Positions 2,751 to 15,440 of a stretch of DNA of 64,000 nt are shown here, one piece after another. Position 1 is the stretch's first letter. Every line of letters begins with the position of its first letter. Source of the stretch: Acholoe squamosa. Its lineage: Eukaryota; Annelida; Polychaeta; Phyllodocida; Polynoidae. The notes beneath the pieces are model-generated. The model did not search any database and had not been told where the DNA came from. It was given only the letters and a program-made list of their open reading frames with translations. The stretch is taken from positions 78,217,972 to 78,281,971 of the forward strand of contig OX439040.1 in NCBI GenBank assembly GCA_949317995.1. Direction: 5' to 3'. A program made the translations under genes and the position numbers.

Positions 2751-3351
2751 GGTCAGCCCCTTAAAACAAAGAAGAGAGGGCAAATAAGTAAGGTAAAACA
2801 GTAGGGATAGAAAGATGTCCATCTAAGGAAAAGGGAGGGAAGGCTGAAGATCAAGATTTTTTTTTGGACTTGCCCATTGCATTAATGAACTGCTATGTTA
2901 ATTAAAATAATGCTATAGAGCAGACCAAGTTTTATTGATTTTTCAAAGGAAAGTCACAAATGAAACAGTACAATAACTTCATGGATCTTGACAAATGTCA
3001 ATATGAACACAATCAGCAGATGGAAAAATAGGGACTGGCAATATTCACTCAATAGGTTATTAACATAGAAAGTACAGACAAACAAATTAAAAGCAAAAAG
3101 AGATAGATAGTAAATAATATGTCATACATAGAGATTTGTGTGTCTACACATTATTTCAGTACATCATCATTACAGCTAAATACACCTTGTCTTTAGTTCA
3201 AATAAGTGATAATTAGAGTTGGTAGTATATGCTGTTATATGCATATGGGAACATCAGCAATATCAATATGGATGTAAACATGAAAAAGGATATGAATGTG
3301 AGTATGAATATGAATATGAAGCGGCATGGTTTCCACACCTGCTTTTCATTA

Positions 3352-6046
3352 TCAATTATAACCCAATTTCAGGTTCAACCTTATATCTTCAGTCTTTGAT
3401 TTCTTATACATTAAGCATAATAATAGCATGTCAAATCTTTTCTCTAACACTGGAACCTTACAAGTTTCATGCAACTCCTTCACACTATACCGTCTAATAT
3501 TGCATTTCAGAAAACTCTAAGAGCTCTATTTTGCAGTAATTGTAATGCCGCAAGACCATCCTCATTAAAAACTAGTACTTATAAATGAACAATATTCTAT
3601 AATTGGTCTGATTGTAAATCTTTACACTTTGCTCTTGTGTTAAAAACTTTCTTAACTTAGCAAACCTAAAAAGTTTATTGCATATATTTCTTTTAATAAT
3701 TTTAATCTGTTTATCAAAACTAAGTTTACTGTCAATATGTACACCTAGATATGGAAAGAAGGTGACAGTTTGCACAGTGCTGCCATTGAAGTCTATAGTA
3801 GAATCCGGATATCTTTTTAATTTATGAGCACTACAAAACCACATAAATTTTGTTTTAGTTGGATTTACTGTTAGTCTGTTTTCGATAACCCAACGCTTAA
3901 AGTTAATTACATCTTCATTCAAATTCTCATTAACCAAGTCTACATCTTTGTTAAAACTATAAATCAAAATGTCATCGGCATACAGTTTAATCTTGCATTC
4001 TTTTAAGACCTTAACAACATCATCAATATATAGGACAAACAACAGGGGACCTAAAACGGGTCCTTGAGGGACACCGTAATCAATATCTCGGTTTGAGGAC
4101 AATTTATTACCATAGCTACTTCGTTGTTTTCTATTTTCCAGGTAACTTTTAAACCATAGAAAATTAGATTTACTCAAACCAAGTTTACTGAGTTTAATTA
4201 GCAATTTTCAATGTAATACACTGTCAAATGCTTTAGTGAAGTCTATAAATAGAGCCCCTGTTATCAGACCATTGTTTCTACATTCATAAAGCTCATTAAC
4301 AAAGTCAAAAGTGGCATCACCAGTACCTGTCCCTTTTTTGTAACTATATTGGTTTTCACAAAAAGTACCATTTTTCTTCATACTTTCACATAAGTAATAA
4401 TACATAATTTTCTCAATGACTTTAGACGGCATTGGTAGTATTGATATGGGTCGCCAATTTTTTACCATAGCCAAATCCCCATCCTTAGGTAATGGTCTTA
4501 CAACTGCCATTGCCCAACATTTTGGAAAAATACCCCTGTCGAAACTAATTTGTATCAGATGAGTGAATTGATTTATCAACAACAATAATGCACAATGTAG
4601 TATATCTCCCCTTATTCCATCTATGCCTGATAACTTATTTTTATCAATTTCTTTTAGAGCAAAATGGACATCCCACTTATTAACCTTAATATTCTGATCT
4701 AAGAAGTTTTCATTTGCCAATAGTTAATCTATATCTAGATTATTATCCACAAGATATTGATCAGTTCCAACAGCAGCAATATGCAGATCCTTACCAATAT
4801 TACAAAAATAGTCATTTACATATTCACAAACATCATCAGAGGTTACATCAGCACCAGTTATATGATGTCTCATGTCTGGATACACAATAGAATTCGAATT
4901 TTTAAACAAGTTATTTATGTGTCTCCAGAATTTTTTGGGATTACCATAACTTACTTGCAACTCTTGCATGACACCACCAATTTGATTTGCTTTAATTTTC
5001 TTTCTAATTTTTCTTCGACAATCCTTTATAGCTTGCTTTTCCTGAACACTTTTATTGGCACTATAGAGACGTAACCATCCTTCTCTTTCAAATACTAAAT
5101 CCATTACTTCATCATCAATCCATGATCTCCTACTTTTTTTAATGTATCGTTCAACATGAGGGTGAAAAGTGTCCAAATATTCAATTAACGGAGTCAATAA
5201 CATATCCCATAATATATCAGGATCAACAGTAATATTATAATAGGGTGACATGATTCTAAAAAATCTCTAAATCTGTCTTCATTAAAGTTTCTATAATCTC
5301 TTCCTCTATACTTAGTGCTAACATAACTGATATTCTCATGTCCTCTACAACCAAAAACTGGGAGGTGATCAGAAATTAGGGCAGAGACCGTACTTGCATT
5401 AGTTACATCTAAGCTATTTGTAATTATGTTATCAATACAAGTACCACTAAATGGTCTTGTCACCTCATTAATTAGTATTTTCCATCCAATATCCTTGCAC
5501 ACATTTCTGAAACTTTCACACCCTGCATCATTTTCATCATACATATTGAGATTAATATCACCTAAGATCCAAGTAACATGCCTACCATGATTGTTGTTAT
5601 ATTCGGAAACCAGCGATGGATCGTAAGAAATTAATAAAATTTGGTACATTTGTATTTGGGATTCTATAGATAGAGACAATCAATAAATCCTTTTCACCAG
5701 GAAGGTTTAACATAATAGCAATACTTTCATAATCGATGGTCTGTATGGTAAAGTCATTTACAACTCTAATATACTGCCCTAGGCCAGCCTTCACACTTAG
5801 GCTAACTCCTCCACAGTTTTTACCAATTCTATCATTCCTATACAGTAACCCATCCTCTTTATTAATCAGGCCATCAGGTGAGGCAGGCTTCAGCCAGGTT
5901 TCACATAGACATATTATGTCACTCCTTCCTAATATCCCATAGATTTCATTATATTTGTCTTCAAAACTATGACAATTTATTGACGGAATTACCAGTCCCC
6001 TCCTCTCCCTGAAATCACTAACACCACAACTACACCTATTACATCA
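3352..6046 (-). pseudogene. LINE ORF2: apurinic-type endonuclease plus reverse transcriptase, broken
   Basis: An N-terminal endonuclease/exonuclease/phosphatase domain is visible from about 5995 (CETWL motif), with GDINLN at 5545-5562 and SDHLPVF at 5353-5373. It would nick target DNA. The reverse transcriptase follows: RPISILP, FIDFTKAFDS, GVPQGPVLGPLLF and the catalytic YADD at 3971-3982, which is intact. The thumb/C-terminal part (EYCSFIST, LQNRALRVF, KELHETCKV) continues to a TGA at 3352-3354. Breaks seen: TGA at 6044-6046, frameshifts near 5615, 5245 and 3600 and again near 3510, TAA at 4724-4726 and TGA at 4208-4210. The true start is uncertain; a TAATG overlap with ORF1 at 6132-6136 is the likely original junction, but that ATG now meets TAG after five codons. 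Confidence 0.9.
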
Positions 6047-6133
6047 GGCCCATCCAAGTCTACAAGAATACAGTACTAAGTCTATGGCAAGCCATAAAGA
6101 AAAGGGACACTGTCTACTTACCACTATTTAACA

Positions 6134-6630
6134 TTACAACACAATCAATGGCTTATTTCTCTCTTTCTCTCTAATCAGGCACCTGGTTGCCATGGTTATC
6201 TTACCATCTAGGTTCTGCCCCTTCACTCTACCCTGATCATATGCTTCAGAACTGTATACAAACCCACCGCCCCAGATCATATCCCTACAACCTTCCACTA
6301 GGATGGTTGAGCCTGTTCCTAGAAGTGATTTTCTTGGCCCCTCACATTGATCATACTTGGCACTAATGAGTGCATTCATATATTTCTGTGAGACTGTGTG
6401 CCAGTAATGGCCTGGTGGTGCTTTGTAATGCTTACATTTGTTTTTGATTTTCTTGGCACTGGTAATTTTCATGATGTCTGAGGCAAGCCTGTGGTAACCT
6501 AACTCTCTCAATTTAAAATAGAAATAACCCTGCTCTACACTACAGAACTCCATGGTTTGACCAAGGACATCAGCTTTAAATGTGCATGGGTACTAGTTGC
6601 TTAAGAAACTGTTCTTGCCCCTGTAGATCA
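6134..6630 (-). pseudogene. NADAR (YbiA/DUF1768-like) domain at the end of ORF1
   Basis: The fold is recognisable from its ordered motifs: YRGKNSFLSN then, after the TAG, YPCTFK; SVEQGYFYFK (Glu at codon 507); WHTVSQKYMNALISAKY (Trp 551); LLGTGSTILVE (Glu 587); RDMIWGGG (Asp 591, Trp 594); and GQNLDGKITM (Asn 614). These correspond to the family's LSNFYP, SxEHYxQxxK, VMxxALxAKF, LLxTxxxxLVE, DxxWGxG and GxNxLGxxLM motifs. NADAR proteins hydrolyse N-glycosidic bonds in riboflavin-pathway intermediates (YbiA) or remove ADP-ribose from guanine in bacterial DarT2-linked systems. What this copy would act on is unknown. From codon 488 to the end there is no stop, so this is the best-preserved part of the frame. 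The family assignment is from motif reading, not a profile search. Confidence 0.8.
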
Positions 6631-8053
6631 GACCAGCTTTGGTCTGCCTTTGGTGAACTTCAGGATTTTGTTCATCATCTTCACCATCATCATCTTCCTC
6701 GTCAGTACTAATAGATCCTGGAGAGCTCATCCCCATAACCTTATTTTTACTATTCCTGACTCAATCAGTTTGGGTTTGAACCCCTTTTGTATGGCTAGGC
6801 CACATACAAGGCCTTCTCTTCTGGTCTCTAATTTCCTTAGGCTCATCATGCTGCACCCAGACTTGGTCTTCTTTTAAGGGGGTTCTAAGCTTCCACTTGT
6901 TGTCTAATACAGATCTTTTAATTCTCATGTTGGAGAGACACACTTTAATTGGTGCCTTCCAACCATTATTGGTGCGCTTAATGTCTAAGATGTCATTCCA
7001 AGGATCATAGACAACTCCCATGGCAACACAAAGACCATCAAATGTTTCATATAGGTTTTCACTATACTGGTAGTGTATACCTTTAATTATGAGATTGCGC
7101 TCTAGGGCTGGTTGAGTGTGCTTCACTCCACTCAATTGCTTGACAACACCAGCACACATACTTAATACATTACAAGTTTCCTCTTTAGTACTAAGGCTAT
7201 AATTGGCTTGACCTAAATCTGATACATTTAATTGTTTTGCAATTAGGCCATCTATTGTTATTTGCTGCGCTTTCACCTGTTCTCGCAGTGTATCTATTTC
7301 CTCCAGTTTCTCATTTAGGAAGGAATCATCACGAGGGGCCATTTCTTGCAGTTTTTTAGATACCACATCCTCAACAAGGCTATCTAAGTCAAGCTCATCT
7401 AACAGCTGATCTTTCAGTAGATCAGTGTCAATTGGTTTGTGTGTATTCAGCCTTTGATTAATAGTGTCAATATCTGCTCTCAAACCTGTCTGAGTATTAG
7501 CACACCTTTGCATGTCCTTATTGACCACCTCTTTGTAGTCATCTAATTGCCCACTTAATCCACAAGAATACTCATGATGGCTTTTACAAGTGGACCCAAT
7601 AGCTTTCATTTCCTCCTGCATTGACTTAATATTCTGTTCATGAGTGTTAATATGGTTTGTATTACTAGTTACTTGCTCCTTATGTACCTTTAGGCTAGAA
7701 CTGAGGTCAGTAATACAATTTCCTAAGTTGGTGTTCATATTAGCAATCATTTGAGCCAATGCCTCAATAGTATTAACACCTTCTGGATTGCTATTAACCT
7801 CAGTGCATACCCTCTCAGTAGAAGGTACTGGTGGGGGTGGGGGTACCTAATTACCAACAACATTGGGTCTGATCACTCCTTGACTACCAAGTATTACACC
7901 ACCCCCAAGCAAATAATCCACTGAATAAATGGTAGGGCTTTTATCCAGACTAATTTTCTTTGGAATCTGACCTTGAGTTCGACTACCCTTACCTGATGAA
8001 TCAATAGAACGTGTGCCATAAGATAAGTTGCATACTAGCACTGTATTCTTCAT
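6134..8053 (-). pseudogene. LINE ORF1 with coiled coil, RNA-binding-like domain and C-terminal NADAR domain
   Basis: A single frame of 639 codons runs from an ATG at 8053 to TAA at 6134-6136, interrupted only by in-frame stops at 7847-7849 (TAG, codon 69), 6761-6763 (TGA, codon 431) and 6593-6595 (TAG, codon 487); no frameshift is needed. Codons about 99-275 are heptad-like and charged, as in LINE ORF1 coiled coils. Codons about 317-413 resemble the RNA-binding part of ORF1-type proteins, with RNLIIKGI near the start and a basic end. Codons 451-461 are almost all Asp/Glu. Codons about 475-635 are a NADAR (YbiA/DUF1768) domain. In retrotransposons ORF1 binds element RNA; a NADAR part would add a predicted nucleotide or ADP-ribose N-glycosidase function. 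An ATG overlaps the final TAA (TAATG), a layout known for LINE ORF2 reinitiation. Confidence 0.8.
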
Positions 8054-8062
8054 CAAGACATC

Positions 8063-8125
8063 GGTCAGAAACCTCCCCGGTCAGAAACCTCCCCGGTCAG
8101 AAACCTCCCCGGTCAGAAACCTTCA
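8063..8125 (-). repeat. 16-bp tandem array directly upstream of LINE ORF1
   Basis: Units GGTCAGAAACCTCCCC start at 8063, 8079, 8095 and 8111 (last one partial). They are the inverse of the left array. Relative to the LINE they sit just before the ORF1 start codon, where tandem monomers act as promoters in some LINEs. A promoter role here is inference. Confidence 0.85.
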
Positions 8126-8134
8126 TTATGTGAA

Positions 8135-8600
8135 GCTTTCTGACCGGAAAAGAGATGGCCAATTGTGCCATAAATATTTATAAGGGGTGGCAAAAAATTT
8201 GTCAGTCTAAAATAGAGCCGGGATAGGATCAATCCTATATTGACTGAAAAAACTATGCCTTTCTGTGATGGAATTCAAACTACAGGTCAATAGATATTTT
8301 TATAACTGCCGGTCAGAAACCTCCCCGGTCAGAAACCTCTTTGACAGAGGAGGAAGTCAAGAAAATTTTCCTTGTTTGTTTGTCCTGAGTCTGGAAAGGA
8401 ACAAAAAGCATAGGGAAGGGTGCCCTGGACCATAAGGAACATGGGGGAAGTGAGGAAATAGTACCTTTCTGTGACCACTTTCAAACTGGAGGCTAAATTA
8501 ACTCTGTAACTGCCGGTTAGAAACCTCGGTCAGAAACCTCGGTCAGAAATGGTCAGAAACCTCCCCAAACGTAGTTGCATCAAACTGGTGAGACAGAGCC
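8135..8600 (+). repeat. Right end of the composite element: internal repeat copies and terminal inverted repeat
   Basis: Holds the second copy of the 200-bp internal repeat (8135-8345), a partial third copy (8463-8545), more GGTCAGAAACCTC units (8311-8340, 8515-8568) and the right terminal inverted repeat (8556-8600). Confidence 0.85.
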
Positions 8601-8604
8601 ATTT

Positions 8605-9489: not shown

Positions 9490-10937
9490 ACCTCTGGAGC
9501 TTAATTCAAAACATCCTGGGATCCCAACCCCAGCGATCTTAGTGTAGGCACATATCATAAGACCTGGCTGGTCTACCCTATGTAATGCAGTGGTTGCAGG
9601 CCTGTCCAGAATAGCTAGTCCTGGGATCACTTCACTATTCCATTTCCACCACTAAGATCACTGCGATCTTAGTGAAAGAAATGCATAGTGGTTTCACCAG
9701 GGTACAAGAGCACTTACAGGGAACACTCCTGATCGAAAGAGTGAATAGCCTGCTGCATACATAAAGAGGGGAGGGAGGACATTTGCTGAGTGTCCTTGAG
9801 GGCTCTTAGGGCTACTCATGCGTTAAGTGCACTGTAAGGTAATTCTTCCCTTCTCTCTCTTTGTCCTGGGGGGAGGGCACAATGCTTCTAATAGGCAAGC
9901 ATAAATCATACATTCATGGGAACTCTTGAATACTGTATGGGAGTCAACTGCACCCTGTGCTCTTTTGTTAGCCCATATGGGGATGGGGAACGATGGTATA
10001 AGCACTCTTGTGAAGAAGAGTGACTCCACAGCTATTCCTTTATTTTGGGACTCTTACCCCTGTGCCTAGTCAGTACTTCTTGGAATAGTGTAGGAGGGCT
10101 GAGGCTAAGATCAATGCGATCTTAGTGCTGGCTAGGATATGTGAACCCAGTCAACTCTTAAGATCGCTTAATAGGATAAGGCTGATTTATTCCTAAGATC
10201 GCTGGGGTGGTGATCCCAGGATGTTTTGAATTAAGCTCCAGGAGCTAAATTCAAAAGAGCTTAATTCAAAAGATCCTGGGATCACGACCCCAGCGATCTT
10301 AGGAATAAATCAGCCTTATCCTATTAAGCGATCTTAAGAGTTGACTGGGTTCACATATCCTAGCCAGCACTGAGATCACATCGATCTTAGCCTCAGCCCT
10401 CCTACACTATTCCAAGAAGAACTGACTAGGCACAGGGGTAAGAGTCCCAAAATAAAGGAATAGCTGTGGAGTCACTCTTCTTCACAAGAGTGCTTATACC
10501 ATCGTTCCCCAGTTGTTCCCATGAATGTATGATCTATGCTTGCCTATTAGAAGCATTGTGCCCTGCCCCCAGGACAAAGAGAGAGAAGGGAAGAATTACC
10601 TTAACGCATGAGTAGCCCTAAGAGCCCTCAAGGACACTCAGCAAACGTCCTCCCTCCCCTCTTTATGTATGCAGCAGGCTATTCACTCTTTCGATCAGGA
10701 GTGTTCCCTGTAAGTGCTCTTGTACTCAGGTGAAACCACTATGCATTTCTTTCACTAAGATCTTAGTGATCTTAGTGCTGGAAATGGAATAGTGAAGTGA
10801 TCCCAGGACTAGCTATTCTGGACAGGCCTGCAACCGCTGCATTACATAGGGTAGACCAGCCAGGTCTTAAGATATATGCTTACACTAAGATCGATGGGGT
10901 TGGGATCCCAGGATGTTTTGAATTAAGCTCCAGAGGT
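9490..10937. mobile_element. Giant palindrome of two inverted TIR elements
   Basis: Left arm about 9490-10242 and right arm about 10257-10937 are near-identical inverted copies joined by roughly 15 bases. Each arm is itself bounded by inverted copies of AGCTTAATTCAAAA followed by CATCCTGGGATC, so each looks like a complete non-coding TIR element with subterminal CTAAGATC/GATCTTAG motifs. The right arm lacks about 60 bases present in the left near 9930-9975. TTAA flanks the TTCAAAA ends, but the flanking bases are also symmetrical, so the target-site duplication is uncertain. No coding sequence is seen. Confidence 0.85.
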
Positions 10938-11751: not shown

Positions 11752-12254
11752 ATAGCGCCATGCTACAGGTTCTTATTCAGGACATAATTGACAATGTATT
11801 TCTCAATCCCAAAAACCCTGTAAACCCAGCACATATTCATGAGCAGTGCTTATTTGACGCAGCTTTCTCTTTAGCTTTACATTTTGGCCAGGTTGATGAG
11901 TACTGAGCAGGTAGTAAGGTATAGGGGGGGGGGGTTGCAGATGGAAGGTGGGGAATATGAGGGTGCAGCTGTGTGCCAGAGTGGGCTAATTGCCTGAGGA
12001 ACAATAGACCATTGACAACCAGCGCTTTTTGGTTGTTTCTGTTTGATGGGGGCTACTAGAGTCCCCCAATTAGTAGTAGGGTGATAGGAGAGGAATGCAT
12101 CACGGTTATTAGTTATCAAGATACATGAATTCAGCCCTGGTAAGTGATTCGCGTAGTAACATTCAAGTATCATGCAAACCCTAAAGGATCGATATTCACC
12201 CCACAGAGTCTCCATGATGCTCCAATGAAGTACTAGGGAGTGTGCTTTGGTGCA

Positions 12255-13934
12255 GTCCTGTATTAGTGATGGACTCCTGTATTAGTGATGGACTCCTGTA
12301 TTAGTGATGGACTCCTGTATTAGTGATGCCCTCCTGTATTAGTGATGGACTCCTGTATTAGTGATGGACTCCTGTATTAGTGATGGACCCCTGTATTAGT
12401 GATGGACTCCTGTATTAGTGATGGACTCCTGTATTAGTGATGCCCTCCTGTATTAGTGATGCCCTCCTGTATTAGTGATGGACTCCTGTATTAGTGATGC
12501 CTTCCTGTATTAGTGATGGACTCCTGTATTAGTGATAGACTCCTGTATTAGTGATGCCCTCCTGTATTAGTGATGGACTCCTGTATTAGTGATGCCCTCC
12601 TGTATTAGTGATGGACTCCTGTATTAGTGATGGACTCCTGTATTAGTGATGGACTCCTGTATTAGTGATGGACTCCTGTATTAGTGATGCCCTCCTGTAT
12701 TAGTGATGCCCTCCTGTATTAGTGATGGACTCCTGTATTAGTGATGCCTTCCTGTATTAGTAATGCCTTCCTGTATTAGTGATGGACCCCTGTATTAGTG
12801 ATGCCTTCCTGTATTAGTGATGGACTCCTGTATTAGTGGTGCACTCCTGTATTAATGATGCCTTCCTGTATTAGTGATACCTACCTGTATTAGTGATGGA
12901 CCCCTGTATTAGTGATGCCTTCCTGTATTAGTGATGGACTCCTGTATTAGTGGTGCACTCCTGTATTAGTGATGCCTTCCTGTATTAGTGATGGACTCCT
13001 GTATTAGTGATGGACTCCTGTATTAGTGATGGACTCCTGTATTAGTGATGGACTCCTGTATTAGTGATGCCCTCCTGTATTAGTGATGCCCTCCTGTATT
13101 AGTGATGGACTCCTGTATTAGTGATGCCTTCCTGTATTAGTGATGCCTTCCTGTATTAGTGATGGACCCCTGTATTAGTGATGCCTTCCTGTATTAGTGA
13201 TGGACTCCTGTATTAGTGGTGCACTCCTGTATTAGTGATGCCTTCCTGTATTAGTGATGCCTTCCTGTATTAGTGATGGACCCCTGTATTAGTGATGCCT
13301 TCCTGTATTAGTGATGGACTCCTGTATTAGTGGTGCACTCCTGTATTAGTGATGCCTTCCTGTATTAGTGATGGACTCCTGTATTAGTGATGGACTCCTG
13401 TATTAGTGATGGACTCCTGTATTAGTGATGGACTCCTGTATTAGTGATGGACTCCTGTATTAGTGATGCCTTCCTGTATTAGTGATGCCCTCCTGTATTA
13501 GTGGTGCACTCCTGTATTAGTGATGCCTTCCTGTATTAGTGATGGACTCCTGTATTAGTGATGGACTCCTGTATTAGTGATGGACACCTGTATTAGTGAT
13601 GGACTCCTGTATTAGTGATGGACTCATGTAGTAGTGATGTCCTCCTGTATTAGTGATGCACTCCTGTATTAGTGATGCACTCCTGTATTAGTGGTGCACT
13701 CCTGTATTAGTGATGGACTCCTGTATTAGTGATGGACTCCTGTATTAGTGATGGACTCCTGTATTAGTGATGCCCTCCTGTATTAGTGATGGACTCCTGT
13801 ATTAGTGATGCCCTCCTGTATTAGTGATGGACTCCTGTATTAGTGATGGACTCCTGTATTAGTGATGCCCTCCTGTATTAGTGATGGACTCCTGTATTAG
13901 TGATGGACTCCTGTATTAGTGATGCCCTCCTGTA
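12255..13934 (+). repeat. 19-bp minisatellite
   Basis: About 88 copies of CTCCTGTATTAGTGATGGA and variants (ATGCC, ATGCA, GGTGCA) in 1.68 kb. Variant units recur in the same order in blocks (for example around 12770-12960, 13130-13230 and 13270-13360), so there is higher-order structure. It begins a few bases after a truncated family P fragment (12211-12240). Confidence 0.95.
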
Positions 13935-15440
13935 AAGCAAAGGACATTGCAAGCAAATTGGTGCGAACCTTGAAGTGCAGAACTAAGGAGGCAGATATCT
14001 ATTCTGATTCTATGGAGCAGTGTATTGATGTTCCTTTAGTCTCTATTTATCCACTCTTTCTGTTCGCCTTTATCTCATGCCCGTCATTTCTTTTTTGTCT
14101 GCAACCTCTCAATACAATATTAGGACTTTGCAGTGATGAACACAAAGAAATACTTAACAGTGTAGTTTGATACTGCAATAAATATCGGTTTTGATAAGCT
14201 GCTTATGGCATGTCTCAGCATTCAAGCTTTGTATGGTGTTCTACACATTTGATTGGTTCTAATAGGCGCAAGTTAACTTGTTTAAAAAGGGCAAATGTGC
14301 AGGTTTTACTTTTCAGTTATTTAGAGCTTGCCTTCCGCTTTCCTGTTATTTACCAATTCCCCCCCCCCTTTATATACATCAATAAAGACAAGAACAGACA
14401 GTGAATACAAACGCCATATCAATCCATCCCTGATTCATCACACCAACAACCACCCTCTCTGTTACCGGGGAAATATATGAGGATTCCGATAGGGGGCGCG
14501 TCAGAGCCACTCCTCCGTTGTTTTCATTCTGACATTCCTCTGTGCCACAAGAGCCCTTACAACATCCAACTCTCCACCTGCAGAGCTTGTATGACTCTCT
14601 CTGCATGAACCTTAAAATCTTTTGTTGAAGAAGGCGAGAAAGGAGTACTACTTTTCTGGTTTCCGATCCGCGTCACACCCTGGCCATTTCCTTACACCAT
14701 AAATAGTCCTTGCAACTATGTTTGATTTCTAACATCAAATTAAAACTGACATGTCTGTAACTTGCAGGATTGGTTGTTTACACGTCCCTAAAAAAATATG
14801 TAAATGGTCAAATCTATTATAAATGACATGTATCTTTCAAACAGATTTGGTCCCTGGTAAAGTGACGAGGAAGGTTCAAACCAAGATACAGTGAGTGCCC
14901 GGAGCAAAATCTCTTCTGACTGGAGATTGAAAACACCCCCCCCCCCTGCATCTCGTCTCCAAGACAACCAGCACCTTACTACAGCAGAATTTGCAAATGT
15001 CAAACATGATGTATTTGGACGTGGTGAATGTGGCCTGAACTGCTGGCAGACAGCAGGCCCTCCTTGTCACCTAACACATACCAATTAGTGTGGTGCTGGC
15101 CATATGTGCCAATTATCCCCTTCACCCAACAGCCTTATTAAATCCATAGCACTGTAGTACCCCCCCCCCTCCCTGACAGGAGGGAGGGTACTGTTTGGCC
15201 AATATCTTGAAATCTGTCACTGTCTCGCAAAAAAAGGGTAGGGTAGATAGACCTAAAGATGGCCATTCATGTGCAGGTTTTCAACATTTCAGTAGGATTA
15301 CGGTAAAGGTTAGAATGTATATATCAGAGCTTATACCATGATTTCTGGCTTACACAGTGCTTTTTGGGGTCTATTCCCATCCACATATCTGTCGATATTG
15401 CACACCCTAGAGGCTGTAACTTCAATTTTGGAAGGCGTGC
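13935..15440. other. No gene recognised
   Basis: Short unsupported ORFs only. Contains C-runs at about 14358 and 14937, and a small hairpin with GTACCCCCCCCCTCCCT and its inverse at about 15157-15193. Confidence 0.55.

Follow-up and report, generated by a model that had tools for sequence, protein, structure and literature searches.

NADAR proteins, one eukaryotic member included, have been reported to cleave guanine-ADP-ribose in vitro, and the rescue of cells by different NADARs is limited to some toxins (PMC11543638, PMC11125620). The physiological role of eukaryotic NADARs, those of animals included, is described as unclear (PMC11125620), and clam and butterfly proteins that ADP-ribosylate guanine are known in the literature. 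RNA viruses with a NADAR in the polyprotein have also been described, and a counter to host ADP-ribosylation was proposed for them (PMC9503650). For retrotransposons, one sentence of a 2025 paper states that the ORF1s of several Tx1 LINE families of the Pacific oyster, Crassostrea gigas, appear to be NADAR domains; the same paper describes Gypsy LTR elements of Ectocarpus that carry a YbiA-family NADAR in Pol, for which RNA processing was suggested (PMC12477816). This was the only paper on NADAR in retrotransposons found among the matches listed in our literature search, subscription papers and Repbase entries aside. Shuffling and transfer of ORF1 between LINE lineages are known (PMC4120745), and the word NADAR is absent from the main texts of PMC4120745 and PMC3905857, which concern the esterase-bearing and shuffled ORF1s of the Jockey superfamily.

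We analysed a 64,000-nucleotide stretch of the genome of the polychaete Acholoe squamosa (hereafter, the window), which holds a LINE copy with a NADAR domain in its ORF1. Such a domain in a LINE ORF1 is not wholly new, as it has been touched on in print once (PMC12477816). The oyster Tx1 elements resemble two of our loci, L010 and L018, which are L1/Tx1-like by ORF2; the window family and most of the fetched loci, however, lie outside the L1/Tx1-like group, and the oyster passage is without the copy number, selection and residue changes treated here (PMC12477816). The Ectocarpus Gypsy elements are likewise retrotransposons with a YbiA-family NADAR, but they are LTR elements and have the domain in Pol, not in ORF1 (PMC12477816). 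The antitoxins of DarT1-NADAR systems and the stand-alone and phage NADARs share with the present domain the Pfam family, Glu43, Glu125 and Lys50 (Lys or Arg), whereas here the domain is fused to a LINE ORF1, the genome is without a DarT match and Arg79 is replaced (PMC11543638, PMC11125620). The RNA viruses are alike, by their description, as selfish RNA-based elements carrying a NADAR, and unlike in that we deal with a LINE ORF1 fusion and no virus (PMC9503650). With the Jockey superfamily the likeness lies in the modular build of ORF1, to which an enzyme domain has been added, and in the evidence for ORF1 transfer, and the difference in the added enzyme, which is here a NADAR (PMC4120745, PMC3905857). 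As far as our literature search shows, the new aspects are the presence of NADAR in LINEs outside the L1/Tx1-like group, its scale, the selection on it, its inheritance together with ORF2 and the change at Arg79.

A decayed LINE copy with NADAR in its ORF1

The LINE copy lies on the minus strand at 3390..8014, as do all the features below up to the repeat tract, and is 5'-truncated and internally deleted, as judged from blastn homology to a sister copy, L077, in three pieces (8014..6749, 6751..6027 and 6029..3390) of 97-98% identity. An earlier note on this DNA had reported ordered NADAR motifs within 6134..8053 and gave no strand. We observed the motifs in that interval, on the minus strand, and found each of the four residues named in it (Glu507, Trp551, Asp591 and Asn614) exactly at the claimed codon. 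The NADAR (YbiA-type) domain spans 6137..6634, as assigned from the Pfam profile PF08719 and the catalytic residues; its open part, 6586..6134, matches the profile at 2.5e-18 (67.3 bits against a cut-off of 35.1). The one continuous reading frame claimed for this copy was, however, wrong. Its 639 codons are interrupted by three in-frame stops (TAG 7849..7847, TGA 6763..6761 and TAG 6595..6593, the last replacing a Trp codon found in the other 21 copies read), and the copy has losses of 229 and 797 bp. As homology to L077 starts only at 8014, the proposed frame begins with 13 codons that do not belong to the LINE. An uninterrupted fusion does exist elsewhere, since L077 has a 768-codon frame with the parts in the same order.

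The ORF1 remnant (6134..8014, from frame reading and homology to L077) ends at its natural stop, TAA 6136..6134. The order of the parts is as had been proposed: a part with weak coiled-coil character, the ORF1 body, an Asp/Glu linker, NADAR, and then remnants of the endonuclease region and the reverse transcriptase. The part taken as coiled-coil-rich (approximately 7103..7759, in the open frame 7759..6761) gave weak coiled-coil-type Pfam matches, none above the cut-off. The ORF1 body, possibly RRM-like, follows at approximately 6790..7102 and was recognised by blastp kinship to the ORF1s of other NADAR-LINEs. Next come a deletion point at 6749..6751, where blastn places 229 bp missing relative to L077 and most other copies listed, and the Asp/Glu-rich linker, which is seen in translation at 6653..6730. 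A second deletion point, again from blastn, lies at 6027..6029, with 797 bp missing between ORF1 and ORF2 relative to L077. Downstream, the reverse transcriptase proposed earlier was recovered as a remnant at 3572..4720 with a YADD box and one in-frame stop (RVT_1, 1.1e-9 and 2.9e-18). The proposed endonuclease is present as remnants split over two frames in translation (approximately 5194..6000; a single frame in L077), and a Pfam search with the piece 5679..5194 gave no match. The description of part of ORF1 as RNA-binding-like was not confirmed: the ORF1 body is recognised by BLASTP as kin between LINE families, the match of L1 ORF1p to the LINE ORF1 profile (A3) was not significant (E 0.34), and a weak Transposase_22 match (E 0.082) appeared in one of eight ORF1 members.

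Because of the three in-frame stops, two private deletions and the lost 5' end, the window copy is dead. An imperfect six-base repeat tract at 3259..3320 (minus strand; Tandem Repeats Finder, 67% matches) is a possible 3' tail of the LINE, and inspection of the LINE ends established no target-site duplication. Inverted arms of a 16-bp minisatellite (2438-2555 and 8062-8601) flank the copy, one arm pair around it being 61 nt long, 100% complementary and 5508 nt apart; these arms look as if the LINE had inserted into another repeat element.

NADAR-LINEs across the genome

We searched the genome (1.48 Gb, 63 contigs) with the window ORF1 DNA and obtained 40 scored places, the window itself being one. 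Counted by eye, NADAR is whole in 30 of the 39 others (in one of them the match reaches base 1906 of 1920), partial in 5 and absent in 4 (C18:45167056, C10:7204271, C2:8734981 and C18:26153035). The match ends before NADAR in the last three of these, at C18:26153035 within the linker. All or part of NADAR is thus present in 35 of the 39, which supports the proposed fusion to a LINE ORF1; the earlier note had named a missing NADAR profile match and copies ending ORF1 before the domain as grounds for rejection, and neither applied as worded. In most sister copies the NADAR piece is preceded by the further 229 bp lost from the window. L077 runs unbroken through NADAR and continues into an ORF2 of 854 codons and, after one stop, a further 117. 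By-eye comparison gave ten places with ORF1 pieces including NADAR (nine whole, one partial) together with an ORF2 piece; L078 and L079 are 5'-truncated copies that share with L077 only the inter-ORF end and ORF2. The NADAR stretch is open to the same stop codon in 20 of 21 non-window copies (20 fetched, best matches first, from the 30 whole ones, plus L077), the exception being L083, which has a stop. The catalytic Glu is kept in 21 of the 22 window-family copies read, window included, and is replaced by Gly in L077.

A NADAR profile search of the genome gave 3224 first-look candidates, and all 150 that were scored matched; as only the best candidates are scored, these counts are lower bounds, and the ranking favours matches holding both the ORF1 body and NADAR. 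Twenty loci were fetched, 18 chosen for long frames from the 150 scored and the two highest-scoring (L019 and L020). A downstream ORF2 reverse transcriptase frame with a YADD box was present in all 18 long-frame loci. NADAR stretches number at least 150 in the genome; LINEs hold 18 of the 20 fetched, and LINE ORF1 searches yield many more. Pfam detected NADAR in 10 of 10 ORF1s scanned (1.2e-27 to 1.9e-24, 87-98 bits), and among six ORF2s RVT_1 was above the cut-off in all and an endonuclease family in five, L014 lying below it (5.8e-6). The ORF1 of L008 gave at least 87 matches; 76 of these span body and NADAR, 55 of them stop-free with a frame of at least 400 codons. At least 83 matches were obtained with the ORF1 of L018, and 38 (query included) run from residue 1 or 7 to the end, 27 being stop-free in a by-eye count. 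As the loci were picked for long frames and the window-family stretches came from whole copies, openness of NADAR is overstated for the genome as a whole. L005 and L006, on separate contigs, have zero differences in 946 ORF2 codons, a sign of recent movement.

Several loci have one or two small frames, about 156-390 codons long, between ORF1 and ORF2 (L005 4602-5321, L008 4470-6117, L011 3936-5105; also L007, L009, L012 and L016). By their motifs they are presumably SGNH-esterase-like, which would be a further likeness to the esterase ORF1s of the Jockey superfamily; the three that were scanned gave no Pfam match above the cut-off. A NarE-type transferase match in the small frame of L005 (E 0.0011) was under the cut-off, and this reading was dropped because its neighbours in other loci look SGNH-esterase-like by the same motifs. 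With three ORF1s as queries, no relatives were found in viral contigs.

The long-frame NADAR loci fall into three ORF2 groups. In the ORF2 tree a 100/100 branch splits L010/L018 from the rest, L001-L004 stand on their own long 100/100 branch, and the other loci with the window form the remainder, with several open forks. The match of the L018 ORF2 to L1 ORF2p covers residues 6-887 at 355.6 bits; its endonuclease finds L1 entries as well as 2v0r, an entry named LTX that we take to be the Tx1L endonuclease. L003 and L005 match L1 over the reverse transcriptase only (95.1 and 76.3 bits). By its ORF2 sequence, the L010/L018 family is L1/Tx1-like; the remaining lineages may be CR1-like by their motifs. 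The window family is on the other side of the 100/100 branch from L010/L018 and so outside the L1/Tx1 group, and its own placement is unsure, its long branch joining L005/L006/L013 at 84/75. The ORF1 body is related across ORF2 lineages by blastp (L015-L018, E 3e-9; L008-L018, 5e-7), and the body of L077 finds L012 (4e-7) and L013 (3e-6). L001-L004 are without an ORF1 body related to those of the other families; they presumably carry an SGNH-like C-terminal part after NADAR, by motif, where a SASA match (0.072) was under the cut-off.

Active site, origin and selection

We compared the LINE NADARs with other members of the family by using the residue numbering of the P. nicotianae NADAR (PMC11543638). 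The 19 LINE rows of the alignment represent 14 distinct elements, L001-L004, L005-L006 and L010/L018 being near-identical. The tree and the comparison at Arg79 used 19 of 53 bacterial loci and 3 of 570 phage records, which were gathered with host NADAR and one LINE NADAR as queries; the bacterial rows, found with host NADAR, are thus a biased sample. All 19 LINE rows have Glu43, Trp89, Glu125 and the Asn of the GxN motif, the last being a residue that the discussion in PMC11543638 does not take up. The position of Lys50 has Lys in 16 rows and Arg in 3, and Lys75 (18/19), Asp130 (16/19) and Trp133 (11/19) are kept to varying extents; the window NADAR has all six of E43, K50, W89, E125, D130 and W133. 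The counterpart of Lys75 is needed for the antitoxin action of the E. coli C7 NADAR, and Glu, not Asp or His, at 125 defines the YbiA subfamily (PMC11543638), to which Glu125 assigns all 19 LINE rows. In alignment A1 the families share only 24-30% identity with L003. Among solved structures, 8bau (4e-24) and YbiA 2b3w (5e-21) match the LINE NADAR profile by sequence.

The position of Arg79, which contacts the pyrophosphate of ADP-ribose in the P. nicotianae NADAR (PMC11543638), is different. Arg79 is replaced in 19 of 19 LINE rows (13 Asp, 4 Lys and 2 His), Asp being found in 9 of the 14 distinct elements, and it is present in 16 of 19 bacterial rows of the biased sample, 3 of 3 phage and 2 of 2 host NADAR rows. 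Reversal of charge at this position points to a changed substrate, and the replacement together with the retention of Trp133 in 11 of 19 rows suggests that the substrate may be something other than ADP-ribose. In the window family position 79 is Lys, which retains the charge.

In the free NADAR tree L010/L018 lie among the bacterial rows (84/78, not firm), and the other 17 LINE rows are together (91/88, not firm), most of them apart from the host pair. A single clade of all 19 LINE rows was not rejected (p 0.55), nor was one clade of LINE and host NADARs (p 0.19). A single origin of the LINE NADARs is thus neither shown nor rejected by the sequences.

Purifying selection on NADAR, for which the earlier note had suggested a test, is supported by the sequence comparison between families. 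In seven divergent pairs the replacement difference in NADAR was 0.069 to 0.420 against a silent difference of 0.725 to 0.952, silent sites being saturated or nearly so in these between-family pairs, and in all seven it was lower than the silent difference and than that of the upstream ORF1 part. The clearest pair is L007/L016 (silent 0.806, replacement 0.069). Compared to ORF2, the NADAR replacement difference was lower in one pair (L007/L016, 0.069 versus 0.157) and slightly higher in six, so NADAR and ORF2 are under about equal constraint. The window family alone gives a modest signal, and the case rests on the between-family pairs; within the family, singletons comprise 42 replacement or stop and 21 silent changes, alleles in at least two copies 5 and 8 (p 0.068), and alleles in at least three copies 2 and 8 (p 0.011, a threshold set after the former test). 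Over 13 families, identity in NADAR follows identity in ORF2 (Spearman 0.71, permutation p 0.0001; 0.57, p 0.0017 without L003 and L018), as expected if both descend together.

Possible functions of the LINE NADAR

The earlier note was right in kind in its observation and wrong on the intact frame. Its interpretation, that the element may reverse ADP-ribosylation of its nucleic acid, appears reasonable on sequence grounds: the conserved active site makes reversal of RNA, cDNA or target-DNA ADP-ribosylation plausible, and the altered position 79 is a warning that the substrate may differ. In our main reading, to which we give an even chance, the NADAR would strip ADP-ribose or a related N-ribosyl adduct from LINE nucleic acid, as a counter-defence within the RNP. 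Active relatives of the window copy would produce an ORF1p whose coiled coil and body coat the LINE RNA; each subunit would carry one NADAR enzyme, presumably an active hydrolase, and bring it to the LINE RNA, cDNA and target-site DNA. Host transferases would place ADP-ribosyl or related N-ribosyl tags on the nucleic acid of the element, and NADAR would remove them.

Besides the matches to the NADAR profile and to solved NADARs, the kept active-site residues, the low replacement differences between families, the correlation of NADAR and ORF2 identity and the published cleavage of guanine-ADP-ribose, two observations in the genome favour this reading. NADAR is amplified (150 of 150 scored of the 3224 candidates) compared with Macro, another ADP-ribose domain, with 6 matches from 13 candidates, and the host has PARP-type transferases (37 of 54 candidates matched, some being fragments of the same gene). 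As these searches ignore introns, NADAR, PARP and Macro genes split into short exons are under-counted. Against it stand the replacement of Arg79 in 19 of 19 rows, the loss of Trp133 in some, the fact that NADAR is not the element's slowest-changing part, the modest selection signal within the window family, the Gly in L077, and a search of the genome for DarT-type transferases that gave 0 matches. Searches for the ART family (PF01129) and for haemocyanin (PF14830) gave 0 matches with controls equally silent, so that the former is uninformative.

The changes in the binding site could also suit an N-glycosidase whose substrate has changed and which serves RNA processing or signalling instead of removing ADP-ribose from nucleic acid. 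Glu43, Trp89 and Glu125 are kept, yet Arg79 is changed throughout and Trp133 varies; riboflavin intermediates and small derivatives of ADP-ribose have been named as NADAR substrates (PMC9503650), and RNA processing is what the Ectocarpus authors proposed (PMC12477816). The Lys that is essential in the E. coli C7 antitoxin is, however, kept in 18 of 19 LINE rows, and fusion to the ORF1 body would point to a nucleic-acid neighbourhood. We consider such a changed activity, for example on RNA caps derived from NAD, on a soluble ADP-ribose signal or on a different ribosyl adduct, possible but doubtful. Partial change of binding-site residues, and a sister copy (L077) without the catalytic Glu, could also be taken to mean that the domain has lost its enzymatic function and serves as a folded structural or RNA-binding module. 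This appears improbable in view of the Glu, Trp, Glu and Asn present in 19 of 19 rows despite family identities to L003 of only 24-30%, and of the Glu kept in 21 of the 22 window-family copies. That the fusion is an accident of assembly or insertion, with a host NADAR gene beside a LINE, is hardly conceivable. The genome does have two stand-alone NADAR frames; against this, NADAR follows the ORF1 body in 35 of the 39 other scored window-family copies, 76 of the 87 L008 ORF1 matches reach it (in a ranking biased towards such matches), a reverse transcriptase lies downstream in 18 of 18 long-frame loci, and in the tree the majority of LINE NADARs do not group with the host pair, though a joint clade was not rejected (p 0.19).

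A bolder extension of the counter-defence reading, which we regard as rather unlikely, is that the NADAR-bearing ORF1 was captured a single time and has since moved between LINE lineages as a transferable anti-defence cassette, with a LINE-specific class of substrate. The ORF1 of coiled coil, body and NADAR would have been exchanged between L1/Tx1-like and other lineages, and selection would keep it because it frees the RNP of base-linked ADP-ribose (or of a related, new tag). The opponent would be a host defence by nucleic-acid ADP-ribosylation not yet described, and the change at Arg79 would mark the LINE-specific substrate class. 

The constraint on the LINE NADARs suggests that nucleic-acid ADP-ribosylation, or a related tag, is of importance in the relation of retrotransposons to their hosts. 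The natural variants of these NADARs offer enzymes and a residue change for testing this role.

The two stand-alone frames, L019 4755-5420 (183.8 bits) and L020 4644-5384 (169.3 bits), look like host NADARs, as no YADD-box ORF2 is among the frames listed for either. L019 has a single open frame over the domain and is up to 59% identical to bacterial NADARs. Two PARP matches per frame were found in very large PARP-like genes, with uninterrupted frames of about 1950-2330 codons (C6:5374526, C6:5408624, C6:5438832, C9:57210693 and C9:57798125).

Elsewhere in the window, nested large inverted repeats lie at 9490-10937 (arms of 338, 255 and 89 nt, 97-98% complementary), followed at about 12115-14070 by a tandem array of a 19-bp unit with 87-88 overlapping copies in register. 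Four tRNA-Ser-like genes and one tRNA-Asp-like gene are spread over 37361-62373, and the three Ser(cga) copies may, at a guess, be tRNA-derived SINEs.
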